DNA from: a virus
Virus record (IMG/VR): IMGVR_UViG_3300030333_008666
Span: 1-64,000 of that record
Strand: one strand, 5' to 3'
DNA: 64,000 nucleotides
Part shown: piece by piece, positions 36,812 through 52,605 of the stretch
Position numbering within the stretch: position 1 is the stretch's first letter
Layout of the letters: each line of letters opens with the position of its first letter
Program-made: the position numbers and the translations under genes
Notes under the pieces: model-generated
Told to the model about the DNA's origin: nothing
Databases searched by the model: none
What the model saw: the letters and a program-made list of their open reading frames with translations, nothing else

Positions 36812-37242
36812 TTCATCTCCTCAACCATTTCAAACCACGTCCCATCTGGGTCTTTGCAGAAAAACACCTTTGCGCGACCATCTGGTGATAATGTTGGTTT
36901 GTTAATTGTTTCAATACCCTCTGATTTTAATGTCTCATAAAGAGAGTCCGCATCCGAGACAGTTAAAGCGACGTGAGAGCAGCCAACTTTCGTTATAAAT
37001 GCAGCTTCGTTGTCTTCTGGGTGGGATTTAAATTGTAATAATTCCAGCATATTGCCGTCCTGCAAAGTCATTTTAACAGTACGCACCTTTGTATTTTTTA
37101 GCCCAAGAAAGGTGTCGATATATTTGCCCTCCTCAACCTGATCTTTTTTGATTTCAAAGCCCAAAATTTTTGTATAAAAATTAATTGACCGATCAATATC
37201 TTTCACAACAATGCCAACATGTCTTCCGGAAACTTTTATCAT
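36808..37242 (-). CDS. VOC/glyoxalase-superfamily metalloenzyme
   Basis: 144 residues. Two betaalphabetabetabeta repeats: RHVGIVVKDIDRSINFYTKI and CSHVALTVSDADSLYETLKS. Likely metal ligands are the His of RHVGIV, Glu in LELLQF, His of SHVAL and Glu in TWFEMVEE. Family members include glyoxalase I, methylmalonyl-CoA epimerase and dioxygenases. With the sugar neighbours, an epimerase or isomerase is plausible, but the reaction cannot be read. Overlaps the methyltransferase and the TIM-barrel gene by 4 nt each. Confidence 0.78.
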   Translation of the reverse strand: MIKVSGRHVGIVVKDIDRSINFYTKILGFEIKKDQVEEGKYIDTFLGLKNTKVRTVKMTLQDGNMLELLQFKSHPEDNEAAFITKVGCSHVALTVSDADSLYETLKSEGIETINKPTLSPDGRAKVFFCKDPDGTWFEMVEEMK

Positions 37243-37958
37243 TTTTTAGCCACGGCCATCAACATAACCTCTTTAGAGAATCTAACATATTTATTAAGAC
37301 CCGCAGAGGGAGACCACGGTACCGGATCCAATGGAGCATACGGTATTGGCAAATAAGAAAAGAGTTTAGAAAAATATTTCAACCAGGGAAATTTCCAAAG
37401 AGTTGGAAGTTGGTAAAAATACTTCACTTCAACTTCAGCAAAGCCGGCCATCTTTAACGCATCTTCTAAGGAAGCTCTCGTAAAGGGTGTTACGTGTGTG
37501 TGATCGATATAAAACGCGTTTTTATAGTTGTGGGCCCAGCTTGGTGTCATAATCACAGCAGTGCCGTCATCGCTCAATGACTCGTAAGCAACTTTAAGCA
37601 AGCCCATGGGATTGTTCATGTGTTCTATAACTGATTTGCTGAAAACAAAATCATAGGATTTCCAGAGTTCACCTGGAGTTATTCCTTCTTCGAGATTGGT
37701 GGCGTAGACCTCATAGTCACTCAAAAGTTCAACGGTGCGCGGAGAAATATCAATGCCAGTGGGCTCGAAGCCCAAATCAGAAAACACCTTAACATATTCG
37801 CCGCGGCCGCAACCCAGATCTAAAATTTTTCCCGTTTTCCCAAACACATCTTTTAGCAGATGCTTTCCGAAGAGAAAAGGATACTCGCCATATGGCGCCT
37901 TCTCTTCCGAGTATGTTACATCCAAATATTCTGCTGAATTTAATATTGTTTTACTCAT
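37239..37958 (-). CDS. SAM-dependent methyltransferase, class I
   Basis: 239 residues. The SAM motif is ILDLGCGRGEYVKVFSDLGF with acidic ribose contact GIDIS; then FVFSKSVIEHMNNPMGLLK (post-I/II) and a C-terminal region suggesting a cap (YLPIPYAPLDPVPWSP). It is related to methyltransferases that act on sugars, phospholipids or quinones. In this cluster O- or C-methylation of a sugar nucleotide or glycan is likely. Overlaps the aminotransferase gene by 8 nt. Confidence 0.83.
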   Translation of the reverse strand: MSKTILNSAEYLDVTYSEEKAPYGEYPFLFGKHLLKDVFGKTGKILDLGCGRGEYVKVFSDLGFEPTGIDISPRTVELLSDYEVYATNLEEGITPGELWKSYDFVFSKSVIEHMNNPMGLLKVAYESLSDDGTAVIMTPSWAHNYKNAFYIDHTHVTPFTRASLEDALKMAGFAEVEVKYFYQLPTLWKFPWLKYFSKLFSYLPIPYAPLDPVPWSPSAGLNKYVRFSKEVMLMAVAKK

Positions 37959-39213
37959 CCTGCTTCACTCCTTTAATGCTAGTTTCTATCACATCGAACG
38001 CTTCATCGATTGCCTCTAGAGAAATTGTCAGTGGGGGTGCTAGCTTAATTGCGTTCTTAAACGTACAAACTGGCAAGACACCATTCCTAATACACTCCTT
38101 CACTATTGCTGTCGACTCGGGCGCTTCTTTGGTTATAATACCCGTAACCATTCCTTTAGTGTTTATATTTGTTATAATATCATATTCGAGGAGTTTTTTA
38201 GACCTTTTTTCAAAAAGGTCGCACTTAGCCTGAAAATCTCTGTGAAACTCCTCACTTGTTAAAAATTCAATGTTCGCTTTAGAGGCGGCGCAACAGACAG
38301 CATTGCCAGAGTGGGTACCACCAACAACTGCTTTTTTATCAACATCCACCAGCTCCTCTTTTGCTAATATTGCTGCCATTGGAAGAGATGAAGAAATTCC
38401 TTTTCCCAGACAGATTAAGTCTGGTTTTATATAATCGCCATAAGTCATATAGCCATACAATTCACCCATTCTATAAAACCCCGACTGTATTTCATCAAAA
38501 CAAACCAGTATGCCATTTTTTCTAGCGAACTCATATAAATCTTTTATGTATTTTTCAGGGTACATCCAAGCGCCCCAGCCCTGATAAGTTTCCAGGAAGA
38601 AAGCTGCAATATCTTTAGGATCACCCAAGGTCGATGGGTCAAACTCCTCGTTATTATATGGAAAATCAACAAAAACTATATCGTCATCGTGCAAGTTGGA
38701 CCAATCAGTGCTAGTTGCGCTACCACAAAGCATATCAGAGCCAAGTGTTCGACCATGGTAACTCCCATTAAAGGTGACAATATACTTTCTCTTATTTTTC
38801 TTTGCCCAAAATTTTATTAACTTACTGGCAATATCAGTTATTTCCGATCCCGAATTTAATAAGACAACTTTTTCGAAGTGGTCTGGGGATATTGCCAGGA
38901 GCTTTTCGATGAACTCATATCTGATTTCTGTATTATACAAGAATGCAAACATCAACTCGTCTGTTTGCTTTTTTATGGCTTCACATATATGGGGGTTGGA
39001 GTGACCCGCATTAGCAACAAAAATACCTGACGTCATGTCGATCCACTGGTTATTGTCCCTGTCGAAGATGGAAAAGTCTTTTGCGCGGTGCCAAACAACT
39101 GGCATTTGATTGCTCAGAGCTATTGATTCATATTTCTGCTTCTTTGCTGTTAAATTTGTACTCTGCAAAGTAAAGTTCTCGGAAATCTTTCGATGTTTTG
39201 TGTTAATTCTCAT
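37951..39213 (-). CDS. Class III PLP aminotransferase
   Basis: 420 residues. Class III signature: MTSGIFVANAGHSNPHICEA, LNSGSEITDIASKLIKFW, FNGSYHGRTLG, VCFDEIQSGFYRMGELYGY (PLP-phosphate and Asp contacts) and the Schiff-base Lys in LICLGKGISSSLPMAAILA. Homologues include glutamate-1-semialdehyde aminomutase and acetylornithine/4-aminobutyrate aminotransferases. It directly follows neuA, so an amino group may be placed on a keto sugar or nonulosonate-like acid. Substrate not visible. Overlaps on both sides. Confidence 0.85.
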   Translation of the reverse strand: MRINTKHRKISENFTLQSTNLTAKKQKYESIALSNQMPVVWHRAKDFSIFDRDNNQWIDMTSGIFVANAGHSNPHICEAIKKQTDELMFAFLYNTEIRYEFIEKLLAISPDHFEKVVLLNSGSEITDIASKLIKFWAKKNKRKYIVTFNGSYHGRTLGSDMLCGSATSTDWSNLHDDDIVFVDFPYNNEEFDPSTLGDPKDIAAFFLETYQGWGAWMYPEKYIKDLYEFARKNGILVCFDEIQSGFYRMGELYGYMTYGDYIKPDLICLGKGISSSLPMAAILAKEELVDVDKKAVVGGTHSGNAVCCAASKANIEFLTSEEFHRDFQAKCDLFEKRSKKLLEYDIITNINTKGMVTGIITKEAPESTAIVKECIRNGVLPVCTFKNAIKLAPPLTISLEAIDEAFDVIETSIKGVKQDE

Positions 39214-39908
39214 TTTTCTTGACCCTTGCCGAAATGCAACTCCAGCAGATTAAATTGTTCTTGAGTGTCGATCTCTATCACACTTTCAGTGACGTACGGA
39301 GATATCTTTTCGCCATATGTTGAACCACCATCAACTGTTGATTTTTTTATTATATCAATGTATCCGTTTGGATGATAGGCCACAGGGAATCTCTGTCGGG
39401 GGAGGTCCGCATAATCTTTGATACCCTCGAAATCTTCAAACAAGCCAACACAAAATCCGTCCGCATTGATTTTAAAAAATTTATATGGTGACTCAGGGAG
39501 AGCATGCATAGAACGAAGACCTGTGGCGTCCTGAACGAGCGCTCGACCATAATATACAGCAATTGCATCATCTAGAGTTTTTGGATTTCTAATTGGTGTC
39601 GTTGGTCGAATAAAGGCAACTTCGCTGACGTCTATCTGGGAAAAGAAGTGTTCAAGTACCCCGAGGTCAGGAGACTCATCTTTTGACAACTCTGCGGGTC
39701 TTAAAAATGGCACCTCTGCGCCATAATGCTTTGAAATAGCTGCTATTTCTTCATCTTCGGTGGAAACAATAATCCGCCCAATTCTAGCACTTGCTTGACA
39801 GGCTTTTATTGAGTGCGCAATCAAAGGTATTCCGCCTAGTAATTTTATATTTTTCCTAGGAACACCCTTGCTCCCGCCCCGGGCGGGTATCAGCGCCGTC
39901 ATTGCCAT
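39210..39908 (-). CDS. neuA: NeuA-like CMP-nonulosonate cytidylyltransferase
   Basis: 232 residues. N-terminal IPARGGSKGVPRKNIKLLGG is the CTP-binding loop of NeuA/KdsB-type enzymes, followed by IVSTEDEEIAAISKHYGAEV, FLRPAEL and IRPTTPIRN. The C-terminal PVAYHPNGYIDIIKKS matches NeuA/SpsF and LegF-type proteins. It would activate a 3-deoxy-2-ketoaldonic acid to the CMP sugar. It lies 2 nt from neuB and overlaps the aminotransferase gene. This is one of only two nucleotidyltransferases for sugars in the cluster (the other is the HldE-type protein). Confidence 0.87.
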   Translation of the reverse strand: MAMTALIPARGGSKGVPRKNIKLLGGIPLIAHSIKACQASARIGRIIVSTEDEEIAAISKHYGAEVPFLRPAELSKDESPDLGVLEHFFSQIDVSEVAFIRPTTPIRNPKTLDDAIAVYYGRALVQDATGLRSMHALPESPYKFFKINADGFCVGLFEDFEGIKDYADLPRQRFPVAYHPNGYIDIIKKSTVDGGSTYGEKISPYVTESVIEIDTQEQFNLLELHFGKGQEK

Positions 39909-39910
39909 AA

Positions 39911-40750
39911 TTAAAGAGTATCAACAGTGCGAAGCTTCTTGGCAATTTGCAATTCTACCTCTGTTACTCGCTTAACACCGTCGCCTAGGCTTTTTTCAAT
40001 CTCACGAATATATTGAGTAAGTTTTCGCAGCCCACCAACTTCCAAAGAGGATGCCTGATCTGAGCCATACATCGAGCGATCCAATGTGATGTGCCTTTCA
40101 ACACTAGTTGCGCCCAAGGTAACAGCTGCACAAGTCACAATGATTCCAACTTCGTGGCCACTATATCCAACATCACAATTAAAAGTTTCTTGCAAAGTTT
40201 GGATCGTTCTCAGGTTGGCATCTTCTGTTTTCATTGGATAACTACTGTTGCAGTGCATAAGCTCAAACGGACAATTCGCATCCTTGAAAATCTTAACTGC
40301 ATCTGTAATCTGCTCCAGTGTGCTCATCCCTGTAGAAATAAAAGTGTGGCGACCCTCCTCTGCAATTGCTTCCAGCAGTTTTCGATGCGTCAACATTGCA
40401 GATGCCACCTTATTATATTTTAAATTATAATTGCGAATGAACAATTGACTTTCTACATCCCAAGCGGATGCCGTCCACTCGATGCCTTTAGAGCGACAAT
40501 AACGGTCGATCTCATCGTAATCTTTTTTGGTGAATTCGAGACCAAGCTTCTGCTCGCGGTTGGTGGTGCCCCATGGGCTTTCGCGTGGACGATCTAGATC
40601 TGCCGCAGAATAAACAGCCTCGACTGTTCTTTTTTGAAATTTAACCAACTGACAATCGCTCTCAACAGCTGCGTCGATTAGTTGCTTGGCGATGTTCAAA
40701 TCGCCGTTGTGATTGATGCCGATTTCAGCAATAATAAAAGTCTTACTCAT
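39911..40750 (-). CDS. neuB: NeuB-like nonulosonate synthase lacking the SAF domain
   Basis: 279 residues. IAEIGINHNGDLNIAKQLID, QLVKFQKRTVEAVYS, the VGYSGHEVGI loop and VERHITLDRSMYGSDQASSL define NeuB (condensation of PEP with an acetamido or hydroxy sugar). Typical bacterial NeuB is ~340-350 residues with a C-terminal antifreeze-like SAF domain. Here the protein ends just after the barrel (KRVTEVELQIAKKLRTVD). No NeuC-type epimerase lies in the window. Substrate may be a hexose or another aldose rather than ManNAc. A possible promoter and a hairpin lie in the 83-nt gap upstream. Confidence 0.87.
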   Translation of the reverse strand: MSKTFIIAEIGINHNGDLNIAKQLIDAAVESDCQLVKFQKRTVEAVYSAADLDRPRESPWGTTNREQKLGLEFTKKDYDEIDRYCRSKGIEWTASAWDVESQLFIRNYNLKYNKVASAMLTHRKLLEAIAEEGRHTFISTGMSTLEQITDAVKIFKDANCPFELMHCNSSYPMKTEDANLRTIQTLQETFNCDVGYSGHEVGIIVTCAAVTLGATSVERHITLDRSMYGSDQASSLEVGGLRKLTQYIREIEKSLGDGVKRVTEVELQIAKKLRTVDTL

Positions 40751-40833
40751 TTTTTTTCCTTAGTGAAAACAAGGGGAAACACCCTTTGTGCTTAATTGTT
40801 ATTTTAACATATTCTACAATTGTTTTAAAAAAA
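40751..40833 (-). promoter_or_regulatory. Intergenic region with possible promoter and hairpin upstream of neuB
   Basis: An 83-nt A/T-rich gap inside an otherwise overlapping operon. On the minus strand it reads a weak TTAAAA-17-TAAAAT pair (about 40821-40793), then an imperfect stem-loop at 40770-40788 with six of seven pairs, followed by a short T run, and the neuB ribosome site AAGGAAAA. The hairpin could end upstream transcription or stabilise the 5' end of the neuB message. Both readings are weak by eye. Confidence 0.3.
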
Positions 40834-41784
40834 TTATTTAATTGAAAGAGGGCCCTTCTCAAAAGAATCGTACCAAGCGCCAGGATGTAAATTGACAATC
40901 TTTACGCCCTTCTTTTTGGCGCTAGCATTGACAATGTTAAAATCATTCAACACATGGTTCCCTATAACCTTCCAATGGCCTACGGCGCCTGGGGGGATAA
41001 ACCTTTCTGAATTTTGATTGTTTTTTGCATAGCCGGTGGTATAATCTAAATCAACTCCCGCAAGATAAATTGGATTACACCCCATTAATATAGCGAAAGA
41101 CAGAGCAAAAACCGCAACAGTGCATCCGGTGCCATAGTGCTTATCAAAACCCGTGTATTCCTGAAGCTCTTCCTGAAGGGTTTTGCGGCTTGAGTCAATC
41201 CTGTGGCAGCACTTTTTTGTTTTCGACCATGCTGCACATGGATAGTTCATAAAAACAGGATCGCATCTCACCTTCTCATAAGCGGCTCGATCAGCTGGCT
41301 GCCACATGTACGGATTGTTCCCATAAAAAGAATATTCTAAGCTTTGGCGTGCTTCGAAGAACTTTCGAAAATTATTAAGTATTTTTGTGCACGTATGCCC
41401 TTTGAAGTGTCTTGTATCATATGGTAAATAATCAAACTTGCCCAGCTGGTCGATGAGATCATAATCAGTCATGTCAGCATTGTCGGCGAAAAGAACCGGC
41501 ACGTTAAAAACATTATAAGCATCGGCAGGGTATCCTTGATACTGCCACCAGCCATCGTTTAACAGTCCAGACTTTAAAGTGAACTCTCCGTTTGATATAA
41601 CCCAGTAATCTGGCTTGGTTTCAAAATAATCGAACCAGTTATTAACTGAGATTCTTAGCAGTTTGTCTTCCATTTGCAGTTTTTGTATTTGCTCTTTAAA
41701 CGGATCGATGCTCGGGCCATGGCCTGCAATTACACATGGTTTACCTTTGTGTTTGTCAATTATATCCTTGTATGATAACTTCAT
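40834..41784 (-). CDS. DUF115/GT42-like glycosyltransferase
   Basis: 316 residues from the ATG at 41784, preceded by GGGAGG, which fits better than the longer frame to 41850 that would run into the RmlB-like gene. The N-terminal PCVIAGHGPSIDPF and the C-terminal GTGCTVAVFALSFAILMGCN followed by PIYLAGVDLDY are the two signatures of DUF115-type and CstII-like (GT42) proteins, which use CMP-nonulosonates in flagellin or LPS glycosylation. A link with the NeuB/NeuA genes just downstream is natural. The middle part has many Trp and Tyr residues (YSFYGNNPYMWQ). No TM segment. Confidence 0.78.
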   Translation of the reverse strand: MKLSYKDIIDKHKGKPCVIAGHGPSIDPFKEQIQKLQMEDKLLRISVNNWFDYFETKPDYWVISNGEFTLKSGLLNDGWWQYQGYPADAYNVFNVPVLFADNADMTDYDLIDQLGKFDYLPYDTRHFKGHTCTKILNNFRKFFEARQSLEYSFYGNNPYMWQPADRAAYEKVRCDPVFMNYPCAAWSKTKKCCHRIDSSRKTLQEELQEYTGFDKHYGTGCTVAVFALSFAILMGCNPIYLAGVDLDYTTGYAKNNQNSERFIPPGAVGHWKVIGNHVLNDFNIVNASAKKKGVKIVNLHPGAWYDSFEKGPLSIK

Positions 41785-41794
41785 GTGTGCCTCC

Positions 41795-42739
41795 CTACCA
41801 TTTAAAATTCTCTTTATAATACTTGACAATGGCAGGCAGTTCTTTATCAAAAACTCTTTGAGGAGCCCAACCTAAGCCTCTAAGTTTAGTGTCGTCAAGA
41901 GCATAGCGAACGTCCTGACCTTTTCTTTTGTAAGAGAAGTCAATCCACTCGGTGTCTTTTGAGGGCTTGTAAGTATTAATAATTTTATTCACAGTCTCCA
42001 GATTGGTTTGTTCAAAGCCGCCAGCCACATTGTATATTTCGTTCATTTTTCCAGATTCAATGATGGTCATAACTGCCGCTGCTGTGTCATCTGCATGGAG
42101 CCAGTTTCTAATTGGTGTACCATCATTATGAAGTCGAATCTTCTTTTTTCGATTTAAATTTTTAACTGACAAGGGTATTAATTTTTCTGGATATTGTCCT
42201 ATTCCGTAATTGTTGGTGGGCCTTAAGATAATATAATTTATATCATATGTTCTGGCCCAAGCTAGCACCAGCATGTCAGCCGCGGCTTTGGCGGCCGAGT
42301 ATGGATTGCTGGGCTTAAGCATATCTGTCTCTACGTGCGCACCATGATCAATATCTCCGTAAACCTCATCTGTGCTGAAGTGGAAAAAGATTGGGCGACT
42401 GCCAACGTTAACTGGTTTAAATCGTATGAGATCTAGCAGGTTCTTTGTGCCAATAATATTACTATCAATAAATTCATCACTGTTGATTATGCTATTCCCC
42501 ACGTGGGACTCAGCGGCGGTATTAATCACATAATCACAATCATACAAATGTTTTAAATCTTTAATGTCAGTATTTTCAAATCTGAACGTTTTATAGGCCT
42601 CAAATTCTTTTAAATATTCTACATTTGCAGCGTAGGTGCATTTATCTACACCATATACTCTCCAGCCCATCTGCAGACATTTTCGAGTGACATAGGAGCC
42701 AATAAATCCTAAACAACCAGTGATATAGACAATTTTCAT
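41795..42739 (-). CDS. RmlB-like NDP-glucose 4,6-dehydratase
   Basis: 314 residues. Extended SDR with ITGCLGFIGSYVTRKCLQMG, NTAAESHVGNSI, the catalytic FSTDEVYGDI and YSAAKAAADML, ILRPTNNYGIGQYPEKLIPL and WLHADDTAAAV. These are typical of dTDP- and CDP-glucose 4,6-dehydratases, producing the 4-keto-6-deoxyglucose nucleotide. It overlaps by ATGA with the E1/RfbH-like gene, which uses the CDP form, so CDP-glucose is the likeliest substrate. No RmlA/RfbF-type nucleotidyltransferase is in the window, so the host would supply the NDP-glucose. Confidence 0.87.
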   Translation of the reverse strand: MKIVYITGCLGFIGSYVTRKCLQMGWRVYGVDKCTYAANVEYLKEFEAYKTFRFENTDIKDLKHLYDCDYVINTAAESHVGNSIINSDEFIDSNIIGTKNLLDLIRFKPVNVGSRPIFFHFSTDEVYGDIDHGAHVETDMLKPSNPYSAAKAAADMLVLAWARTYDINYIILRPTNNYGIGQYPEKLIPLSVKNLNRKKKIRLHNDGTPIRNWLHADDTAAAVMTIIESGKMNEIYNVAGGFEQTNLETVNKIINTYKPSKDTEWIDFSYKRKGQDVRYALDDTKLRGLGWAPQRVFDKELPAIVKYYKENFKW

Positions 42740-44085
42740 TTAAAAAACTCCTTCACGGTTTCCTCAATATAATCAAGCTTTTCTTCTGTTATACCGGCAT
42801 AAGTGCCTAGAAAAAAAGAGTTTTTTGTAACTTCGTGCGCAATCGGGAAACGCTCTTTTAAGTTATTGTACTTTTGAGCCAGGCCCTGATACCCGGGATG
42901 ATATAGAATGTTGCCAGAGAAGTACGAGCGAGTCTGAATCTTTGCTCTTTCCAAATGAGAGACAAGTTCGTATTTTGTGAATTTATCATTCTCCTTAACT
43001 GTTAGCAAAAAAGCAAACCAGTCTGGATCTGAATGAGGAGTTGCCTTTGGCAAGTGAAGATATTGTTCATACGGTTTAAAAATCTTTGTGAGTCGATTAA
43101 AGTTTTCCTTCCGAGACTCGTGAAATCCATCAATCTTTTTCATCTGCTCAAGGCCAATGGCCGCTTGTAATTCAAGTGGTTTTAAGTTATATCCGATCTC
43201 ATCAAAAACATACCTATGATCGTATTTAATCTCTGGTGCGCCGGGTAGCCAACCTCGAAAACGATTGCCGCATGCGGTTCCACACATGACATTGCCGGGT
43301 TTCTGACTGTTACAATAACATGCTCGACCCCAATCGCGAAAACTAGCCAATACCTGTCTTAATTTGGCAGAATCAGCAGCGACATAGCCACCCTCTCCGA
43401 GTGTGATATGATGGGCAGGGTAGAAAGAACACGTAGACATAGCACCAAAAGATCCAAGCTTTTTATCTTTATAAGTTGAGCCTAGAGCATCACAACAGTC
43501 TTCTAAAAATATCAAATCATATTTTTCAACCAAGTGCATCAACCTATCCATGTCTGGTGGATTTCCCAAAACATGAGCGAAAACAATGCCTTTGATGTCT
43601 CTATGAAGGTCGTTGCGCAATTGTCTCTCCACTTGATCTAGATCCAAATTCAAGCTTGGAAGTGTAACGTCAACAAATACTGGCTCAAAGCCGCACTGAA
43701 TTAGTGGATTCAACGTTGTTGGGAAACAAACGACAGGGGTAATGAATTTGTCTCCCTTTTTTAAAGGGAATCGCTTCTGGATGTATTTATCAGAAGATGT
43801 AAGCGCTGCCATCATTAAAAGATTAGCGGAGCTTCCAGAATTTGTCAGCACACCATCTTTCTTTCCTAAATGCTTGGCAAACGATGTTTCGAATTGACGA
43901 CCCTTTGATCCTAAAATCAACCAGCCGTCTAGTATCGCATCAACCGCTGCAACATACTCATCGCTAGAAAACATTGGACCCGAATAGGATACCCAATCTT
44001 GACCAGCAACAAAAGATTCCTGCTTCTCTGTGGCAACATATTGCTTTACCAGTGCTCTAATTTGATCTAGTATTTCTTGACTCAC
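42736..44085 (-). CDS. rfbH: CDP-4-keto-6-deoxyglucose 3-dehydratase (E1, RfbH-like, [2Fe-2S])
   Basis: 449 residues. LTNSGSSANLLMMAAL, FLEDCCDALGSTY and SFYPAHHITLGEGG: His replaces the PLP Lys as in E1. The [2Fe-2S] ligands are present as C198-x57-C256-x1-C258-x9-C268. Characterised E1 has C-x57-C-x1-C-x7-C, so the last spacing is two longer. The motif ASFRDWGRACYC and DHRYVFDEIGYNLKPLELQA agree with E1. The enzyme needs an E3-type reductase, not visible here, so the host may supply electrons. Product: CDP-3,6-dideoxy-4-keto-hexose, the acceptor of YerE in yersiniose synthesis. Confidence 0.9.
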   Translation of the reverse strand: MSQEILDQIRALVKQYVATEKQESFVAGQDWVSYSGPMFSSDEYVAAVDAILDGWLILGSKGRQFETSFAKHLGKKDGVLTNSGSSANLLMMAALTSSDKYIQKRFPLKKGDKFITPVVCFPTTLNPLIQCGFEPVFVDVTLPSLNLDLDQVERQLRNDLHRDIKGIVFAHVLGNPPDMDRLMHLVEKYDLIFLEDCCDALGSTYKDKKLGSFGAMSTCSFYPAHHITLGEGGYVAADSAKLRQVLASFRDWGRACYCNSQKPGNVMCGTACGNRFRGWLPGAPEIKYDHRYVFDEIGYNLKPLELQAAIGLEQMKKIDGFHESRKENFNRLTKIFKPYEQYLHLPKATPHSDPDWFAFLLTVKENDKFTKYELVSHLERAKIQTRSYFSGNILYHPGYQGLAQKYNNLKERFPIAHEVTKNSFFLGTYAGITEEKLDYIEETVKEFFK

Positions 44086-44936
44086 ACTAACTCCATGAAT
44101 GTTTTTTCTATACCCGTTTGTAACCCATCAAGGGTAATATTATTTTCTTTAACTATCTGATGTAGCACTGAGCCAGAACCAGTATATGATTTTCCCATTT
44201 TGCTACTTTTGACAATCACTTGACCGGTCATGTTCTTTTGTGCATATACCAACTCAGCAACATCTTTCAATGTCTTCTTGGGACCATTATAACACATATT
44301 AACATCCGTTGGTAATTCTTTTGTTTCAAAATTGTTTATATAAACCTCAACAACTTTACACAAATCACCAACATAAAAATAATCCATCTTTTTGTCTTCT
44401 TCTATGACCATCTGTTGACTTTTCAAGCACCTAGTAATTGCAGTTTTTACTAGGCGAGTAGAGTTCTCTTTTGGGCCAAAACATCCAAAAAGTCTTAAGT
44501 TCACCATATTTTCATTGCGTAAGACATTTTTTGCCACAATCCGCTTCGACATCCCGTAATAATCAACTGGAAAGCGAGTGGATAACTCATTTTCCTTGAG
44601 ATTTTCGATACTTAGTGCTCTGTTGAATTCAGCGCCAGAAGCAAAGTTTATAAGCAGTTTAAAGCGATCTTTTTGGCGCTTTAAATTGTCAAACATGTGT
44701 ATGTTGTCAACAAAGTCTTGTTCAGCATCTTCTCTAATTCGACTGCCGCCTTTAACGGCGCAATGCAAAATGACATCGACTTTGTTTTTAATAAAAAAAT
44801 TACTAACAGAAGGCAGACTACAAAAATCTAAATTGCTTCGATTTGCCAGAAAGAGTTTATATCCCTTATCTGAAAAATGTTCTGTCAGTTCCCTTCCTAA
44901 AAATCCATTACACCCAGTGATTAAGATGTTTGTCAT
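44082..44936 (-). CDS. NAD(P)-dependent sugar epimerase/4-keto reductase
   Basis: 284 residues, extended SDR: ILITGCNGFLGRELTEHFSD, ILHCAVKGGS, INFASGAEF (Ser), YYGMSKRIVAKNV (YxxxK) and NLRLFGCFGPKENSTRLV. These fit the RfbJ/YerF-type reductases that reduce the 4-keto group of dideoxyhexoses. It overlaps both the E1-like gene and panB by 4 nt. By position it would be the reductase that finishes the E1 or E1/YerE-type product. YerF identity is inference. Confidence 0.78.
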   Translation of the reverse strand: MTNILITGCNGFLGRELTEHFSDKGYKLFLANRSNLDFCSLPSVSNFFIKNKVDVILHCAVKGGSRIREDAEQDFVDNIHMFDNLKRQKDRFKLLINFASGAEFNRALSIENLKENELSTRFPVDYYGMSKRIVAKNVLRNENMVNLRLFGCFGPKENSTRLVKTAITRCLKSQQMVIEEDKKMDYFYVGDLCKVVEVYINNFETKELPTDVNMCYNGPKKTLKDVAELVYAQKNMTGQVIVKSSKMGKSYTGSGSVLHQIVKENNITLDGLQTGIEKTFMELV

Positions 44937-45910
44937 TTATTTCCATCAAACAGTGGGGGCTCATCTGGAAATGGCTCCACTTTCCGAACGACCGTGTTCG
45001 GAGTGACACAATGGTTGGTTGGAAACCCTTGATCAGTTTCATAAATAATTCTTTCATGTTTCCAGTTTCCACCGCCAAGCAGCTTCTCTAATTCACTCTC
45101 TTTGATCGCATAAAAATTTTCCTCTGCAGGAAATTTGCCAGACCTCACCTCGGCCGCATATTCCTTGAGCGCTGACTGCATGATTTGACCAGCTTCGCAG
45201 TATCTTTTCACAAATTTGGACTTAAATTCCCAGAAGAGACCCATCAGATCATGAAAAATAACAAGTTGGCCGTCCACTTTATCTCCAGCACCAATGCCAT
45301 ATACTGGGATTGATAATTCTCCAGCTATCATAGCAGCGGATTCACGAGGCATTCCCTCTAAAAGTAGAAAGTTGCAACCAGCGTCCTGCAATGCCAGTGC
45401 TTGCCCCAGAATAATTTCAGCTTGTTTTGCCGTCTTTCCTTGTACTCGATAGCCGCCAAGTTTAGCTCTGGTGTGTGGTGTGAGGCCCAGGTGGCTCATA
45501 ACCATAATCCCAGAATCAGCAATTGCTTTAATTCTCTCCACCATCGCCCCTTCTACCTTAACACAGTCCATTCCCGCTCTAACGAACCTTCCAGCATTAT
45601 ATACTGCCTCTTCGTTGGAAACCTGATAAGACATATAAGGCATATCACCAACCAGAAATGCATTTTTAGCTCCGCGGGAGACTGCCTCGCACGCACTAAT
45701 CATTTGATCCATTGTTACGGGGATTGTTGTTTTATGACCCAAGGTGGTCATCCCTAGGGAATCACCGACCAATATCGCATCTACGCCGGCGCCATCTGAT
45801 ATTACCGCCTGGGGATAATCATACGCCGTCGTCATAACTGTTTTGATGCCTTCTTTTTTTTGCCTTCTTAGTTTAAGGATTGTTACTTTATTTTTTTCAT
45901 CTGCTGGCAT
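44933..45910 (-). CDS. panB: PanB homologue (ketopantoate hydroxymethyltransferase family) with C-terminal extension
   Basis: 325 residues. Nearly all PanB landmarks are visible: MTTAYDYPQAVISDGAGVDA, ILVGDSLGMTTLGHKTTIPV (metal Asp), AFLVGDMPYMSYQ (second Asp), GLTPHTRAKLGGYRVQGKT, LLLEGMPRES (catalytic Glu) and IPVYGIGAGDKVDGQLVIFH. PanB adds a hydroxymethyl group from methylene-THF to 2-ketoisovalerate, on the route to CoA. Typical length is about 265, so ~55 residues after the core (from about 270) are additional and have no known domain. No PanC, PanE or IlvC/D gene is here. In this cluster it may act on a sugar-linked keto group. It starts 9 nt after the ThDP enzyme gene. Confidence 0.9.
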   Translation of the reverse strand: MPADEKNKVTILKLRRQKKEGIKTVMTTAYDYPQAVISDGAGVDAILVGDSLGMTTLGHKTTIPVTMDQMISACEAVSRGAKNAFLVGDMPYMSYQVSNEEAVYNAGRFVRAGMDCVKVEGAMVERIKAIADSGIMVMSHLGLTPHTRAKLGGYRVQGKTAKQAEIILGQALALQDAGCNFLLLEGMPRESAAMIAGELSIPVYGIGAGDKVDGQLVIFHDLMGLFWEFKSKFVKRYCEAGQIMQSALKEYAAEVRSGKFPAEENFYAIKESELEKLLGGGNWKHERIIYETDQGFPTNHCVTPNTVVRKVEPFPDEPPLFDGNK

Positions 45911-45919
45911 ATTCGCTCC

Positions 45920-47701
45920 TTATTCTTCCTCTAGTGGTGCCACAATCATATTCTTGTGAAACTCTTCTCTATCTAAAAATGGGTACATATCTTCAAGTGG
46001 CTTTGAGATGATTCTACCATCAGGAAGTTTTTTCGAACTTATTGTTGGTGAAACCATGTCCCACTTTTTGCAAATTACTTCACAAATCACCGGCCCATCA
46101 TATTTTAACACCTTTTTGATAGTTTTTTTAAGAGCTTTTGTCTTCGAAACTTTAAAGTACTTGATTCCATAGGCTTTTGCAATCTTCTTCAGATTTGGAA
46201 AAGAAACACCAGATTCCTTATCTGTGCCTATGAACCGATTATTAAAAAATTTTCTTTGTGTAGTCCGAATTGATAGATACCCATGGTTGTTCCACACAAA
46301 TGTTTTAATTGGCAGATTTTCATGTACTATGGTTTGCAGCTCTTGAATGTTTGTTTGAAACGAGCCATCTCCAGTAATTCCAACAACTTGGCCGGCACCT
46401 CTTGCGAAACTAACGCCAATGCTTGCCGGTATCGTAAAGCCCATATCTGCTTGGGCGCCTGATGTTATGTGTCTCTGTTGTTTTCTTATCTGCAAGGCTT
46501 GGGCTGGAACATAATATGCTGAACCTGCATCTGAAACAACTACTTCATCTTTGCCAGTGCTTTGAGCGAGATACTTCATAAAGCCATATAAACTTATCCC
46601 ACCTGTATCATCCTCGTGTTCCTTCAAGAAGATTGGCCAAAGGTCTTTCCACTGTTCACATGTTTTCGCCCATTTCGCTGGCGCTTTACCCAACTCAACG
46701 TTTTCTAAGAACTTTTTTGCATCCGAGTGAACGAAGTGATCAATTTTAACTGTGTCTTTTTGATGTTCTAGGGCGTCAACGTCAACAACAACCAATTTTG
46801 CTTCCCGAGCAAACAGTTCATAGCGATATCCCGTAACCGGCACACTCAGACGCGTACCAATTGCCAATATCAAGTCTGCATTTTGCATGGCAAAGTTGCC
46901 GGCACGAGAACCTTTTATGCCAATCCTTCCAATGTTCAGAGGGTGGTCGGTTGGTAACAGGTCGACGCCTAAAAATGTGCTAACAACTGGCACCTTGTGC
47001 TTTTCAATGAAGTTTTTAAATTTATTTACTGCGCCGGATAATCGTATGCCGTTTCCAGCTAATATAATTGGCCTCTCAGCCTTATAGAAAAGTTCTTCGG
47101 CGCGCTTAAGATCAGCAGCAATAGGGGCGATTTTTTCTTTTTCCGGCGGTGTATATCTTTTTAGTTTAGATGGGTCAATATCAGTGCCTTGCACGTCTAA
47201 TGGTATATCTATCCAAACTGGACCGGGACGTCCAGTGGTAGCTTCATTTATCGCCTTATCCAAGTGATAAGCAATGGTTTCTGGGTCATTTATCATGACT
47301 GCGTATTTTGTCATAGATTTTACCATTGCAATGGCATCTGCCTCTTGGACACCAAACTGTCTCAGCGGCAAATCAATATTATGAGTTGTTTGAGCTTTGT
47401 TAACTTGTCCTGAAATGAAGAGTGTTGGTAGATTGTCTTGCCATGCATCTAAAAGACCAGTGAGGGCATTAGATGCTCCACAGCCAGTTGTCACCATTGC
47501 GACGCCAATCTTATGGCTATATTTTCCATACCCAACAGCTGCCATGGCGCTAGCCTGCTCGTGATGATTGCAAACTGCTTTAAGATGTGGGTGTTTAGCC
47601 ACGCAATCGTTCAAATACATTGCGCCGCCGCCAGTGACAGTGAATACGTGCTCAACGCCAAGTTGATAGATTCTATCCGCTATGTAATCAACTAGTCTCA
47701 T
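45920..47701 (-). CDS. YerE/acetolactate synthase-like ThDP carboligase
   Basis: 593 residues with the full three-domain layout. N-terminal VFTVTGGGAMYLND and NHHEQASAMAAVGYGK (catalytic Glu48), a central domain (AERPIILAGNGIRLSG, NIGRIGIKGSRAGNFAM), and the C-terminal ThDP site GITGDGSFQTNIQELQT followed by WNNHGYLSIRTTQ. ALS catalyses pyruvate decarboxylation and acetyl transfer. YerE adds an acetyl branch to CDP-3,6-dideoxy-4-ketohexose. With the E1-like gene two places downstream, a YerE role is favoured over acetolactate for branched-chain amino acids. No regulatory small subunit is present. Overlaps the GT2 gene by 14 nt. Confidence 0.87.
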   Translation of the reverse strand: MRLVDYIADRIYQLGVEHVFTVTGGGAMYLNDCVAKHPHLKAVCNHHEQASAMAAVGYGKYSHKIGVAMVTTGCGASNALTGLLDAWQDNLPTLFISGQVNKAQTTHNIDLPLRQFGVQEADAIAMVKSMTKYAVMINDPETIAYHLDKAINEATTGRPGPVWIDIPLDVQGTDIDPSKLKRYTPPEKEKIAPIAADLKRAEELFYKAERPIILAGNGIRLSGAVNKFKNFIEKHKVPVVSTFLGVDLLPTDHPLNIGRIGIKGSRAGNFAMQNADLILAIGTRLSVPVTGYRYELFAREAKLVVVDVDALEHQKDTVKIDHFVHSDAKKFLENVELGKAPAKWAKTCEQWKDLWPIFLKEHEDDTGGISLYGFMKYLAQSTGKDEVVVSDAGSAYYVPAQALQIRKQQRHITSGAQADMGFTIPASIGVSFARGAGQVVGITGDGSFQTNIQELQTIVHENLPIKTFVWNNHGYLSIRTTQRKFFNNRFIGTDKESGVSFPNLKKIAKAYGIKYFKVSKTKALKKTIKKVLKYDGPVICEVICKKWDMVSPTISSKKLPDGRIISKPLEDMYPFLDREEFHKNMIVAPLEEE

Positions 47702-48455
47702 TTAAAGTGTCGTCTTTGGCGGTGGGGGACCATTTTCGTGCCCAATATTCGCGGATGATATGATCGTAGCTTTTCTGCTCACGGTGCATACCCCACGTGG
47801 CTTGACCTTGGTGCCACCTGTAGTAATACCCCAGCCACTTGGGTATGGGATAAATAAAAACATCACTATCGGCTAAATTAAAATACAGATCATAATCTGC
47901 GGCTCCCAGATAATCTGCAGCGTTCCAAGTTAAGAGACCTTGATCATATAATTTACGACTAAAAACAACTGTCGGTGTGTTGACTGGACATTTCTCAAAT
48001 AAGCTGTTTTTAAATTCCGCCATACTCTTATATGAATGACCAACATCTTGCATCATATTGCCAGTATGCCCTTCGACACCTCTTATTGGACTCTGCAAGC
48101 ACAGCACCGTATCTGGCTTTGCAAGAAAATATTTCATGAAGTTTGAAACATAATCCGGAGCGATATAATCATCTGCCCCTAATATTGTTATGTAATCACC
48201 AGTGGATTGTTGGAGTGCCTCTTGCACTGGTTCTTCCCACGAATGGCGATACAAATTGGGCGCCGTTGCAGTTACGAGTGATTCATTTTGTGAAGCTAAT
48301 TTCTTTATAACAGCTAAACTGCCATCTGTGCTCTCATTATCAACAACAATAACTTCAACATTGTCATAAGTCTGTGCTAAAGCCGAAGAAACACTTTGTT
48401 CAATCCACGACTCTGCATTAAAGCACGGTATAATAATTGTCACGCGGGGTTTCAT
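47688..48455 (-). CDS. GT2 family glycosyltransferase
   Basis: 255 residues. GT-A fold: VTIIIPCFNAESWIEQSVSS, VIVVDNESTDGS, the DxD-type motif ITILGADDYIAPDYV, and a C-terminal GYYYRWHQGQAT. It transfers a sugar from a nucleotide donor to an unknown acceptor. No membrane segment, so the acceptor is likely cytoplasmic. Overlaps the next gene by 4 nt and the ThDP enzyme by 14 nt. Confidence 0.88.
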   Translation of the reverse strand: MKPRVTIIIPCFNAESWIEQSVSSALAQTYDNVEVIVVDNESTDGSLAVIKKLASQNESLVTATAPNLYRHSWEEPVQEALQQSTGDYITILGADDYIAPDYVSNFMKYFLAKPDTVLCLQSPIRGVEGHTGNMMQDVGHSYKSMAEFKNSLFEKCPVNTPTVVFSRKLYDQGLLTWNAADYLGAADYDLYFNLADSDVFIYPIPKWLGYYYRWHQGQATWGMHREQKSYDHIIREYWARKWSPTAKDDTLNETS

Positions 48456-49288
48456 TCAAAAACTCTCCGGATCTTGTCGGCAATCTCTGTTCGTCGGGCT
48501 CTCATCAGTTCAATCAGTGGCTTTCCCTTAAGGCTGAACCACTCCTCATGTGAAGCCCCTACGAGCGAATTTGTATAAACCTTCATACCTGCCATTCGCG
48601 CCTCAACAACAATGCGAGACAGTGTTTCAGGCGTGGAAGGAAAAAAGGCCAGTGACTCATTAGCAGTCAAGGCTGTTAAAAACTCTTGATAACTTGCGCT
48701 TTTTACCAGTTGATAATTTATTTTTTTTGCTTTGCAATATTTTATAGCCAGGCCAGTATTCTTCGATGGAATAAGAGAATCCATGATGGAGCACTTGGGC
48801 GCCTTCTCTTTTTCTGACATTATCTCCAAAAGATCTAAAGCGGATTCGGACCACAGGTTGCCAGATAAATTAATTATATTGTCTAAGTTTAGATTTTTTT
48901 TTATTACGCCAGCATGAAAGCCCGACTGGCACAATATTGCAGCTGCAGATTTATAAAACTCTAGGTTTACAATCTCTTCTGCAGGTGCCTTAAGGTCTTT
49001 CCACTGGCCTGGGTTGCGGCTTTTTAAGTACTTGTGATCATGTTCATAAATAACATATTTGCAATCCAGCAAGGCGCGCTTACTTTCTTCTGAAAGTTTT
49101 ATAAAATTTGATACGATATAATTACTGTCTTTATTTTCGTTAATATATTCCGGTGTTAGTTCTTCCGAGTGCACAGCGGAAACTTTTTCCCCCTGTATGT
49201 GCAAAAGCTTAATGACTTCCATGTCATTTAGTTCCGCGCCACCGTTGATCTCGTGCGCAAAGAAATCAGCCGAATAAACAAATTCCAC
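48452..49288 (-). CDS. GT4-like/GT-B glycosyltransferase, divergent
   Basis: 278 residues. The N-terminal FFAHEINGGAELNDMEVIKL recalls the glycine-rich acceptor loop of GT4 enzymes, and the C-terminal SLAFFPSTPETLSRIVVEARMAGM resembles the E-x7-E/donor-site segment, here with ETLSRIVVEA. The protein is shorter than a full GT-B (about 350-400), so one Rossmann domain seems reduced. Overlaps neighbours by 1-4 nt. Confidence 0.7.
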   Translation of the reverse strand: MEFVYSADFFAHEINGGAELNDMEVIKLLHIQGEKVSAVHSEELTPEYINENKDSNYIVSNFIKLSEESKRALLDCKYVIYEHDHKYLKSRNPGQWKDLKAPAEEIVNLEFYKSAAAILCQSGFHAGVIKKNLNLDNIINLSGNLWSESALDLLEIMSEKEKAPKCSIMDSLIPSKNTGLAIKYCKAKKINYQLVKSASYQEFLTALTANESLAFFPSTPETLSRIVVEARMAGMKVYTNSLVGASHEEWFSLKGKPLIELMRARRTEIADKIRRVFE

Positions 49289-50553
49289 TAGGCATGAACC
49301 TCTGCATTAAAATCTTCTAACCAACCCTCTAGGTCGTGTTCCTCTTCCGCATATACATTATCTGCAAAACTTTTATATTGTTGTTCCGCGGCGAATTTCT
49401 TTAATACGTGCTTTTGCAATGCCGCCGACTGTTTCTTAAACCGGCCGTGGTCCTTCAGCACTTCACGAAGACGCATTTTATAGCTCCCCTGTTTTGGGAA
49501 GGACCATTGAGAGTCGGCTTGGATTACTCCATCCCATACCGCTTCTTTTTGCACTGGGCCAATAGTGTAGTCAACAGACGCGAACATTGATTTATTTTTT
49601 TCTTTGCCTTTTTTCTTACTCTTAACTGGCATACACATGAAATCCATGTGACCACTCCAAGGTTGAGCGATTACAGGAAGCCCATTATATGCGGCCTCAA
49701 ACGTTGGCAAGCCAAACCCTTCAGCATTGGATATGGAAATTAGAGCCTTTACTTTTGGATGTTGGTAGAGTCCTGTCATTTCCTCTGCTGACATATCCCC
49801 GTGCAATAAATAAATTTTACATTTTCGATTCGGATACTCACTCAGCAATTGTGAAATTTTATTTTCAGTAAATCGCCTATCGCCCAAAGAATTGTTTCGA
49901 TGGCTTGTTTTAACAATGAGGCCCACCTCTTGATCGATGAATTCTTCCACAAATCCGACTATAGTATTTTCTAGATTTTTTCTGGGGCCCCACTGGCTTA
50001 CAGTGAGAAAATTAAAATCTGTCTTAAGATTTAAGTCTAGGTTTGCCGCCTCGTAGTGGCGCACTGGATAATTTACAACTTCAACCGGCGTGCTGTTTTT
50101 CAATAAAAAATTCTGACCTGTTTGGTTGTTAGTTGCGTGATAAGAAGTGTTATCAAACCCATACTTAGCGTGATTGGAAATTACAATTATCTTATCCATG
50201 AGGTGCGACTTCTCAATCCAGCCAGGTGCGATGCGGTCGGATTCAATGCCAGCGGTGTAGCCGACATTTACCGGTGCGATTTTTTGCCACTCGTTGGGAA
50301 TTGTCACTTGCAGCGAGATATCAAACTGGCCTCCTTGTTGTTGGTATTGATTTGTTTTTAACAGAAGTTCATCGAGCCACTTTCGCTCTTCGGAAAAACT
50401 CACAATCCAACCGGTTTGCCCCCAGTTGATATTTTGCAAATAAATATCAAAACGTTCTTCATATGCGCGCAAAGACCGCAAAGCAAATCGACACTGCTCT
50501 CCGTAGCCGCTTCGACTTAATGCGGGGCCCACAACTAATACTTTCTTTCTCAT
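49288..50553 (-). CDS. GT4 family glycosyltransferase
   Basis: 421 residues, GT-B fold. VLVVGPALSRSGYGEQCRFA (acceptor loop), VGYTAGIESDRIAP, ILTVSQW-type segment LTVSQWGPRKNLENTIVGF, and the donor site ISNAEGFGLPTFEAAYNGLP with the EGFGLP-x-E pattern. This is a clear GT4 signature. Cytoplasmic or peripheral. Abuts the next gene by 1 nt. Confidence 0.87.
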   Translation of the reverse strand: MRKKVLVVGPALSRSGYGEQCRFALRSLRAYEERFDIYLQNINWGQTGWIVSFSEERKWLDELLLKTNQYQQQGGQFDISLQVTIPNEWQKIAPVNVGYTAGIESDRIAPGWIEKSHLMDKIIVISNHAKYGFDNTSYHATNNQTGQNFLLKNSTPVEVVNYPVRHYEAANLDLNLKTDFNFLTVSQWGPRKNLENTIVGFVEEFIDQEVGLIVKTSHRNNSLGDRRFTENKISQLLSEYPNRKCKIYLLHGDMSAEEMTGLYQHPKVKALISISNAEGFGLPTFEAAYNGLPVIAQPWSGHMDFMCMPVKSKKKGKEKNKSMFASVDYTIGPVQKEAVWDGVIQADSQWSFPKQGSYKMRLREVLKDHGRFKKQSAALQKHVLKKFAAEQQYKSFADNVYAEEEHDLEGWLEDFNAEVHA

Positions 50554-51815
50554 GCAACCTCTCTCAATTCCCAGGATTTATATTTCTTTCTCTCTCCCCA
50601 GGAACCATATTCTTTGTAAATTGTGGTGAATATCTCTTCCCACTTTTCAATATATCCTTCAAAATTATAATTTTTTTCCACATGGGCGCGGCCCTTGGCC
50701 CCTAACGCTGCGCGCTCTTCTTTGGTCATGTTATACATCTTAACCAGCGCGTCAACAACATCCTTTTGTGCAAGACGGTCTTCGTAAATCCATGGGATCG
50801 GCTGAGAACCAATAATAGCTCTAGAAGCTGGTTCAATGCCAATACCAAACCATTCTTCGCCGTCTGTAACTTGCTCTTGCAGGCCACCAGTCATTGTTAC
50901 GATTATGGGAGTCTCACAAGCCAGAGATTCAAAAGTCGCCAGACCAAAACCTTCGGCATCGGCAATGTTAATTGTGCAATCTGCAAGATTATAAACCTTC
51001 GCCATTACTTCTGACGGTACCTTTCTCTGAGAGAAGACCACTTGTTCTTCTGTTAGGTCCAAGTGTCGTACAATTTCGATCAAATCTTGACCGTTTGGAT
51101 CTTTGGGTTCTGTGTGCATGACGAGCATGGCTTTATCATGACCAATCACATCCAAGAAGTCTTTGAACCAAAAAATTAAGCTACCGCTTTGCTTCCGGCG
51201 GGCATTTCGATTGTTCCAAAAGAAAACTACTTTATCTTTTGCCGCTTCTCCAAATATTTCCTCTTTAAACTTCGCCGTTTCCTCTTCTGGGAGTTTTTTG
51301 AAAATCTCTGTATCGACAGCATGTGGTAAATATTCACTGTCACCTGCAGGGGAGACTTCCTCTACGATCTTCTGGGTGACTTTTGAAATGGTGACGATTT
51401 TATCCGTCGAATCATAAAACGTTTTATTGAACGTAGGTGCTGGGAAATTATCCCAAACATGATAGTAAACCATTGGAACGCATGCTCTAATTTCATGCTC
51501 CATATCCCACAACCAGCCATAAAATCTAGGGTCTGTCATAAACCAAAGAATATCGGGCTTTTCAGTTTGTAGGACCGAGCGAACCATTTCTGGTGTGCCA
51601 TATGAATTGACCGGTATAATTGTCCAATCATCTTTAAATTCTTCAGTTCTCACTGGGCGATAATCATCATGTTTAATCGCGCCTCCGAAACTGATAAATG
51701 AGAACTTCCCAGTACGAAGCATGGCTTCGATTATGTACTTTGTCTGCAAACCAACCCCGGATGAAGAAAACGGATGGTCGCTAATTGTGAATATTTTAAT
51801 TTTTTTGTCTGTCAA
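50550..51815 (-). CDS. GT4 family glycosyltransferase (probable TTG start)
   Basis: 421 residues from the TTG at 51815. SSSGVGLQTKYIIEAMLRTG (acceptor loop), VVFFWNNRNARRKQSGSLIF, and donor site NIADAEGFGLATFESLACET. A longer frame starts with GTG at 51857 but has no Shine-Dalgarno and lies inside the nuclease gene. The TTG is 10 nt after the nuclease stop and preceded by GAGAGGA, so I prefer it. First of three GT4-type genes in a row, and the first gene of the sugar block. Confidence 0.85.
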   Translation of the reverse strand: MTDKKIKIFTISDHPFSSSGVGLQTKYIIEAMLRTGKFSFISFGGAIKHDDYRPVRTEEFKDDWTIIPVNSYGTPEMVRSVLQTEKPDILWFMTDPRFYGWLWDMEHEIRACVPMVYYHVWDNFPAPTFNKTFYDSTDKIVTISKVTQKIVEEVSPAGDSEYLPHAVDTEIFKKLPEEETAKFKEEIFGEAAKDKVVFFWNNRNARRKQSGSLIFWFKDFLDVIGHDKAMLVMHTEPKDPNGQDLIEIVRHLDLTEEQVVFSQRKVPSEVMAKVYNLADCTINIADAEGFGLATFESLACETPIIVTMTGGLQEQVTDGEEWFGIGIEPASRAIIGSQPIPWIYEDRLAQKDVVDALVKMYNMTKEERAALGAKGRAHVEKNYNFEGYIEKWEEIFTTIYKEYGSWGERKKYKSWELREVA

Positions 51816-51825
51816 TTTATCCTCT

Positions 51826-52605
51826 CTATGGACAATGTTTTGTCCTGTGAAACTCACAGCTTGAACAAGCTAACCTATTCTTTGTATATTTTTTTCTTGT
51901 AATATTATAAAGGGCTGTTGTCAAAAATTTAATAGCGTTTTGTGTTTTTTTATTTCCGCTAGTAACTCGAAAAAACTCTACGTTATTTTTCTTGGCAGTT
52001 CGCTTAAGTAAAGCAAAGTGAGTTTCAATATTTTTGGGGTCAATTCCGTGCTTAATCGCAAAATAATATTTATAAAAAGTTAACTGATATGTGGTCATTC
52101 TATCGCTTTTGCGGCGCGCATCCCAGCCCCAAGAACAAGTTTTCCAGTCGACAATGTGATATTTGCCATCCGGAGTCTTAAAAACCGCGTCAATGAATCC
52201 CTTAAAGTCATATTGTTCATCGGTGAAATCTCGAATGGGTTCCAGTATTTGTTCTTCTGTAGAAACGATCTCGTACTCTTCTCCAAAATAATCCTCGACC
52301 GCGGACATCACCTGGGTTGATAAAGATCTACCCTGATCGAACATTTCGACTATTAAGGCTTTTCGCTTATCTAAGTCTTCCGGAAGGAGATCAAGTTCTT
52401 CGCGAAAATACTCTTTAAAAGACGACGGAGCCTCATCCTCAGTGAGTCGATCTAGCAAGAGACCCTCGCACACTGAGTGAAGGGCTGTTCCGAAGGCAGT
52501 GTATTCGTTTCCTTTGAAAAGCCTAAGTTTATCGATGTACGTTAATTTATGATAAAACGCGCACCGGTCCCAATTCTTCAACGCAGAAAAAGACACATGT
52601 GACAT
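51826..52605 (-). CDS. Cas4/RecB-like PD-(D/E)XK nuclease with a four-Cys iron-sulfur site
   Basis: 259 residues. The nuclease core is FKGFIDAVFKTPDGKYHIVD followed by WKT: D in FIDAVF, then (D)WK for the D-x-(D/E)xK pair. Two Gln/Tyr residues follow in TYQLTFYKYYF (QxxxY). Cysteines at 15, 247, 250 and 258 (CSSCEFHRTKHC near the end) match the iron-staple arrangement of Cas4 and AddB-type nucleases. This suggests DNA end processing or recombination. There is no CRISPR array or other Cas gene in the window, so Cas4-like does not mean CRISPR here. T4-like phages often encode such exonucleases. Confidence 0.85.
   Translation of the reverse strand: MSHVSFSALKNWDRCAFYHKLTYIDKLRLFKGNEYTAFGTALHSVCEGLLLDRLTEDEAPSSFKEYFREELDLLPEDLDKRKALIVEMFDQGRSLSTQVMSAVEDYFGEEYEIVSTEEQILEPIRDFTDEQYDFKGFIDAVFKTPDGKYHIVDWKTCSWGWDARRKSDRMTTYQLTFYKYYFAIKHGIDPKNIETHFALLKRTAKKNNVEFFRVTSGNKKTQNAIKFLTTALYNITRKKYTKNRLACSSCEFHRTKHCP

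Follow-up and report, generated by a model that had tools for sequence, protein, structure and literature searches.

Why should a marine phage carry a homologue of PanB, the ketopantoate hydroxymethyltransferase of vitamin B5 synthesis, inside a glycan gene cluster, next to a thiamine diphosphate (ThDP)-dependent enzyme? The question is raised by IMG/VR record IMGVR_UViG_3300030333_008666, a virus contig of 73,646 bp which carries baseplate-wedge and PhoH-like proteins, as T4-like myoviruses do, and of which we analysed the first 64,000 nucleotides (hereafter, the window). The original prediction, made from the sequence alone, proposed that PanB hydroxymethylates a ketone branch already installed by the ThDP enzyme or, alternatively, raises host coenzyme A (CoA). 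We observed that panB indeed belongs with a YerE-like ThDP gene and with the glycan operon, as indicated by their linkage in viruses and by pairs found in Omnitrophota. The operon probably builds a C-branched deoxy sugar, with PanB as the maker of the donor used by the ThDP enzyme. The two genes are the following:

44933..45910, minus strand: PanB homologue of 325 aa with a C-terminal extension of ~58 aa, proposed to be a 2-oxo-acid hydroxymethyltransferase/aldolase making the ThDP donor (family profiles, active site, model)
45920..47701, minus strand: YerE-like ThDP-dependent carboligase of 593 aa, best solved relative 8rph (profiles, structure-sequence match, tree)

The ThDP gene, on the same strand as panB, precedes it by 9 nt, and a gene of the short-chain dehydrogenase/reductase (SDR)/epimerase family overlaps panB by 4 nt; with the operon context, this agrees with the placement beside a ThDP enzyme and an epimerase in a glycan cluster that had been described. 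IMG/VR was scanned with the window PanB, which gave 68 loci, and with a mixed alignment, which gave 34 further contigs (the overlap of the two sets was compared by hand from the lists). A ThDP gene stands beside panB, on the same strand, in 68/68 loci of the first scan and 32/34 contigs of the second, hence in 100/102 overall, with a gap of -4 to 150 nt in 95 of the 100 contigs (median 1-2 nt). The order is ThDP-PanB in 71 pairs and reversed in 29. As for the two contigs without a ThDP gene, panB is beside panC and panD in one (L244) and the stretch ends ~260 nt past panB in the other (L246). The co-occurrence of panB and yerE-like genes elsewhere, proposed earlier as a check, is thus observed in these 100 viral contigs and in two Omnitrophota genomes.

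A single clade (SH-aLRT 95, by a quick tree method) unites the viral PanBs of the first scan. Their ThDP partners belong to at least three YerE-like lineages, outside IlvB/IlvI/Gcl (starred branches of the tree force at least three changes of virus label; the best tree has four), and the pair has therefore been rebuilt more than once. Another PanB type carries an insertion of ~30 residues, forms a clade of its own (support 100) and is present in L261, L271, L290, L292, L299 and L307; the match values of L293 equal those of L290. This type is 44-48% identical. In L292 it is found in the same position, next to a YerE that is 69% identical, with the genes arranged as in the window. By computation, more than 600 nt separate PanB from the ThDP gene in L261, L271, L290, L293 and L307, and the ThDP match is split in L290, L293 and L307.

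Cellular YerE-like genes were sampled in Omnitrophota, Desulfomonile-phylum and Nitrospinota-phylum genomes. From the Omnitrophota (285 genomes), 30 YerE-like loci were fetched, and panB adjoins in two of them (L178, L182), with products 56% and 64% identical to the window PanB. In one of these two genomes, the fuller locus (L183) encodes RfbF, RfbH, a CDP-dehydratase-like protein, YerE and PanB in that order; the scores are 330 bits for glucose-1-phosphate cytidylyltransferase (cut-off 300.25) and 644.5 for RfbH (cut-off 423), and the dehydratase is CDP-glucose 4,6-dehydratase-like, its best model being the CDP one, below that model's cut-off. A PanB match at 1e-50 exists in 238 Omnitrophota genomes and two matches are tabulated in three (G236, G253 and G285), of which G253 and G285 are the two that carry the YerE-linked copy. 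The second PanB of G285 is on another contig and 45% identical, that of G253 is counted with its place unlisted, and each of these two genomes has one panC, elsewhere in the genome. In both, the YerE-linked PanB is additional to another copy. No ThDP gene was found within 1.5 kb of panB at 28 other Omnitrophota loci. The same holds for the 80 nearest cellular PanBs, whose flanks were covered for up to 9 kb and where tblastn finds PanC in 29. None of the 16 YerE-like loci from Desulfomonile-phylum and Nitrospinota-phylum genomes has a panB gene (one ends at a contig end), and the ThDP protein has no match at 1e-80 among the plasmids searched.

The ThDP enzyme had been labelled "ALS/YerE-like" (ALS, acetolactate synthase); the YerE part of this label stands and the ALS part does not. 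The closest solved structure is 8rph (460.8 bits over 585 residues), followed by 5ahk (267 bits). The latter, deposited as an acetolactate synthase, is what we take to be the YerE of Pseudomonas protegens (Hampel et al. 2018). 8rph is identified here as the putative JanthE because, in the alignment, it has CDG for GDG, a feature given for JanthE in a review (PMC12247030). In a tree whose outgroup consists of IlvB, IlvI and Gcl, the YerE-like sequences from viruses and cells are all on the opposite side, together with 5ahk and with JanthE, the latter inside the 67-row clade that holds the window enzyme. In addition, the window enzyme scores 366.4 against the biosynthetic ALS equivalog TIGR00118, below the cut-off of 538.35. 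The ThDP motif GDG (G444-D445) and the catalytic Glu (E48) are invariant over 60 viral rows. At the acceptor-binding Arg/Trp positions of ALS the window protein has P288 and T481, the same as 8rph, and Arg and Phe stand there in 31 of the 60 viral partners and in 5ahk; the missing Arg/Trp was rejected as a proof against ALS, since it holds for the window protein and fails for other viral ThDP lineages. Judging from these comparisons, the window ThDP gene product is a YerE-like carboligase. With YerE, JanthE, PpYerE, ErwE and MMAR_2332 it has in common a deoxy-keto-sugar gene context, and it matches 8rph over nearly its full length, but it is phage-encoded and has GDG rather than the CDG of JanthE. 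The review makes no mention of a PanB partner of YerE-like enzymes (PMC12247030). Longer YerE-like open frames, of about 860-890 aa, were also seen in L154, L156, L159 and L236, and a YerE-like protein of 856 aa (L186 8953..11523, minus strand) has ~250 extra N-terminal residues without a Pfam match.

Is the viral PanB a genuine PanB? It matches PF02548 over residues 8-263 (7.6e-98) and exceeds the cut-offs of the TIGR00222 "panB" equivalog (280.7 bits, cut-off 207.55) and of NF001452 (318.5, cut-off 272). The metal and catalytic residues are readable, as had been noted: Y25, D45, S46, D84, K112, E114, H136 and E181 of the E. coli enzyme are all present, and D45, D84, K112, E114, H136 and E181 are identical in 100% of viral alignment rows. 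The AlphaFold model superposes on the solved PanBs 1o68 and 1m3u with TMt 0.84-0.86, and the viral genes are under purifying selection (pN about 0.1-0.2 versus pS 0.77-0.90). The extra C-terminal residues, ~55 in the original prediction, are there, with ~58 lying past the family domain. They were modelled, as suggested earlier, and residues 272-325 (the last ~54) came out with low confidence (pLDDT <50); the stretch to W283-K284 is conserved across the viral family and the last tail is variable. A phosphonate-type reading (phosphoenolpyruvate (PEP) mutase with phosphonopyruvate decarboxylase) was rejected, as the whole length of the gene fits PanB, the resemblance to PEP-mutase structures being remote.

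The viral protein thus resembles known PanBs (PF02548, TIGR00222; 1m3u, 1o66/1o68, 1oy0) in fold, full-length homology and all metal and catalytic residues. It differs from them by its operon, which has YerE/RfbH in place of panC/panD, by its C-terminal extension and by clade-specific substitutions; its identity to the cellular PanBs found is at most 65%. V183M, I200Y and L213V (E. coli numbering), together with changes at 208 and 234, are found both in the viral clade and in the two YerE-linked PanBs of Omnitrophota, and are rare among 109 cellular PanB sequences; Q142H is confined to viruses. From strand alternation, residues 183 and 200 should lie on the same side as 181, 202, 212 and 214. 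At the last three positions the window PanB has Ile, Leu and Ile, the Leu and the second Ile being present in about a quarter of cellular PanBs.

Which sugar could be branched? The minus-strand glycan operon runs, in transcription order, from glycosyltransferase-like genes through the ThDP enzyme, PanB, the SDR and RfbH to an RmlB-like dehydratase and, from the GT2-like gene to the latter, neighbours overlap or have 9 nt between them. The other members are:

48452..51857, minus strand: three more genes of the syntenic block, two of them group-1 glycosyltransferase-like (translation read by eye, without family scan)
47688..48455, minus strand: gene before the ThDP gene, GT2 glycosyltransferase-like (translation read by eye, without family scan)
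44082..44936, minus strand: protein of the SDR/epimerase family, proposed to act as a ketoreductase (or epimerase) once the sugar is branched (39/68 related viral loci have a gene of its cluster)
42736..44085, minus strand: RfbH-like sugar 3-dehydrase, proposed maker of the 3-deoxy-4-keto sugar acceptor (His225 for the PLP lysine; Cys 256, 258, 268, 272)
41795..42739, minus strand: NDP-hexose 4,6-dehydratase-like, RmlB-like, under the equivalog cut-off (family profiles)

The RfbH-like protein scores 480.2 against NF011936 (cut-off 423), with H225 in place of the pyridoxal phosphate (PLP) lysine and C256, C258, C268 and C272 present. Sugar 3-dehydrases of the RfbH/ColD type have His for this Lys and yield 3-deoxy-4-keto sugars, and YerE is known to use acceptors of this kind. 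The DegT-type genes near the viral PanBs (one cluster, 68 loci) have His at that position in 55/55 cases and are therefore of the sugar 3-dehydrase type; three Fe-S cysteines are in register in about two thirds of them, and the fourth Cys fails to align.

What does PanB contribute to such a pathway? Scanning with a ThDP alignment yielded 80 viral loci, with PanB in 52, a divergent, putative HpcH-type aldolase directly after YerE in 5, and both in none. Similarly, in 46 cellular YerE-like loci an HpcH-type gene is beside YerE in 6 and panB in 2, never together. Two viral loci (L373, L378) retain the window order GT1a-like, gp48-like, GT2-like, YerE, X, SDR, where X is an HpcH-type gene plus a ferredoxin-like gene. 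E126 and D155 of the HpcH-type proteins, aligned with the family metal ligands, are invariant. In two other YerE clusters, without PanB or HpcH (L370 5761..8385 and L377 5780..8389), the slot is occupied by DJ-1/PfpI and Ldh_2 genes; Ldh_2 is a family of 2-oxo/2-hydroxy acid dehydrogenases. PanB and HpcH both yield 4-hydroxy-2-oxo acids, E. coli PanB being a promiscuous class II 2-oxo-acid aldolase (PMC7610986), and the YerE-like enzyme ErwE refuses pyruvate and favours 4-hydroxy-2-oxobutanoate and longer acids as acyl donors (PMC12247030). The exchange with HpcH, the common type of product and the donor preference of ErwE together suggest that PanB acts before the ThDP step.

We infer the substrates, the order of the steps (from gene content) and the final glycan as follows. 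The 4,6-dehydratase and the RfbH-type 3-dehydrase would produce an NDP-3,6-dideoxy-4-keto-hexose. PanB, with methylene-tetrahydrofolate or formaldehyde, would convert a small 2-oxo acid (pyruvate, 2-oxobutanoate or 2-oxoisovalerate) into a 4-hydroxy-2-oxo acid, which the YerE-like enzyme would decarboxylate so as to add the acyl carbanion to the keto sugar at C4. The SDR would then reduce the side-chain ketone, and the glycosyltransferases would attach the branched sugar to a surface or virion glycan. Such a scheme is close to the pathways of erwiniose and caryophyllose, sugars with longer branches; for erwiniose the ThDP donor is likewise a hydroxylated 2-oxo acid and the acceptor is CDP-4-keto-3,6-dideoxyglucose (PMC12247030). 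Here, the hydroxy-2-oxo acid is proposed to come from PanB (or HpcH).

Several observations weigh against PanB as the donor maker. Neither PanB nor HpcH is beside the ThDP gene in 23/80 viral loci, three of which end at a contig edge, and in 38/46 cellular YerE-like loci, for which the flanks were just 1.5 kb. The HpcH assignment is remote, with PF03328 scores of 26.5-32.5 bits for a cut-off of 25 (three proteins above it) and a profile E-value of 5.7e-6 to YfaU. Two Gemmatimonadota PanBs without ThDP (L080, L084) fall inside the YerE-linked PanB superclade; they were rejected as module members, having no ThDP gene nearby, and the surroundings of L084 are ordinary amino-acid genes. Within the window, no reductase partner for the 3-dehydrase and no sugar nucleotidylyltransferase were identified, nor the nucleotide. 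Finally, as the window PanB is above the curated panB equivalog cut-off, it could carry out simple ketopantoate synthesis.

This last point is compatible with two other explanations. PanB could be a CoA auxiliary metabolic gene that lifts ketopantoate and host CoA, the ThDP neighbour being incidental or an ALS feeding the same pathway. A viral "pantoate transferase", the most abundant of the vitamin-metabolism genes in a virome from the eastern tropical North Pacific (ETNP) oxygen-minimum zone, was read in this way (PMC8940887). However, tblastn with the E. coli proteins (1e-3) gave no match to IlvC, IlvD and PanE in the window and the rest of the record, in line with their absence as first noticed, nor to PanC, PanD, IlvH and IlvN in the record, which may be a fragment; none of these seven was found around the 68 viral relatives, where an IlvE-like gene is seen only in L011 and L013. 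Moreover, the ThDP enzyme falls under the ALS cut-off and groups apart from IlvB/IlvI/Gcl, the linkage was rebuilt with different YerE-like enzymes, and in cells the YerE-linked PanB is present in addition to another copy. We therefore disfavour the CoA explanation, which appears highly improbable. Alternatively, PanB could make textbook ketopantoate and the ThDP enzyme could use it as donor; the branch would then be 3-hydroxy-2,2-dimethylpropanoyl, and the donor-making explanation includes this case. The intact active site and the equivalog score fit with it, but a donor with a quaternary carbon beside the ketone is undocumented in the literature covered, and V183M and I200Y suggest another 2-oxo acid, so that we consider it rather unlikely.

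The order initially proposed, in which PanB acts after the ThDP enzyme and hydroxymethylates the acetyl branch of a nucleotide sugar, would account for the same gene linkage, and the C-terminal extension could suit a bulky substrate. Nevertheless, every metal- and 2-oxo-acid-binding residue is kept, the slot is interchangeable with a divergent HpcH-type 2-oxo-acid aldolase, and the relative ErwE takes 4-hydroxy-2-oxo acids (PMC12247030). Furthermore, the viral Ile, Leu and Ile at the E. coli pocket positions I202, I212 and V214 (PMC7610986) are not smaller, and the bulkier Met and Tyr are nearby. The order is probably the reverse, and action of PanB on the finished branch seems very unlikely.

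The individual enzyme families are all known already. PanB as donor maker in sugar branching, or a PanB-YerE linkage, is undescribed in the searchable literature, the main ErwE paper being outside this scope; we also found there nothing tying PanB to 4-hydroxy-2-oxobutanoate or viral PanB to acetolactate synthase. The ETNP "pantoate transferase" is probably of the same viral gene family, being likened by name alone, and the IMG/VR gene context suggests surface-sugar synthesis instead of the published CoA-boosting role (PMC8940887). The proposal names concrete enzymes for the making of branched sugars, and, for a YerE-like enzyme not yet characterised, the adjoining aldolase may predict which acyl donor is used. 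We see as evenly balanced the broader idea that phages, and also a few bacteria, turned this PanB lineage into an aldolase dedicated to making donors for YerE-type branching, with an altered 2-oxo-acid specificity, yielding undescribed branched deoxy sugars on phage-modified host surfaces or virions. If true, a product could be a 4-C-(3-hydroxyacyl) 3,6-dideoxyhexose, and most viral "PanB vitamin genes" would be glycan genes. The panB of Microcystis phage MaAM05, near panC and suf genes, was rejected as an example of this module, and its contig is possibly bacterial. Concerning the prasinovirus PanB (PMC6851583), no such contig was recognised among our loci and no link was established.

Other genes were observed in the vicinity of these loci. 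In L015 (4754..6292) and 12 other viral loci, PanB has in its neighbourhood a B12-binding radical SAM protein (512 aa), directly upstream in several, which may methylate the acid or the sugar. A Clostridiaceae locus (L073, at 1959 and 9001) has two PanB homologues 7 kb apart, 42% and 52% identical to the window PanB. NeuB-like genes, whose products are also 4-hydroxy-2-oxo acids, are near cellular YerE-like genes in L167, L168, L171, L229, L230, L232 and L234. In the window, the RmlB-like gene is followed downstream by genes for a PF01973 protein, a NeuB-like protein, a cytidylyltransferase and a class-III aminotransferase; the region 37239..41850 (minus strand), with a short NeuB-like protein (279 aa), a PseF-like cytidylyltransferase, the aminotransferase, a methyltransferase and the PF01973 protein, is a possible nonulosonic acid branch. 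The glycan cluster has another ThDP-dependent system for C-C bond formation, a split transketolase-like pair (PF02779, under the cut-off, and PF00676; 31854..33097, minus strand), which adjoins a DegT aminotransferase (30681..31844); similar pairs are directly before PanB in L004 and L055. Lastly, an open reading frame of 2913 aa (10213..18954, minus strand) lies beside the baseplate-wedge protein.

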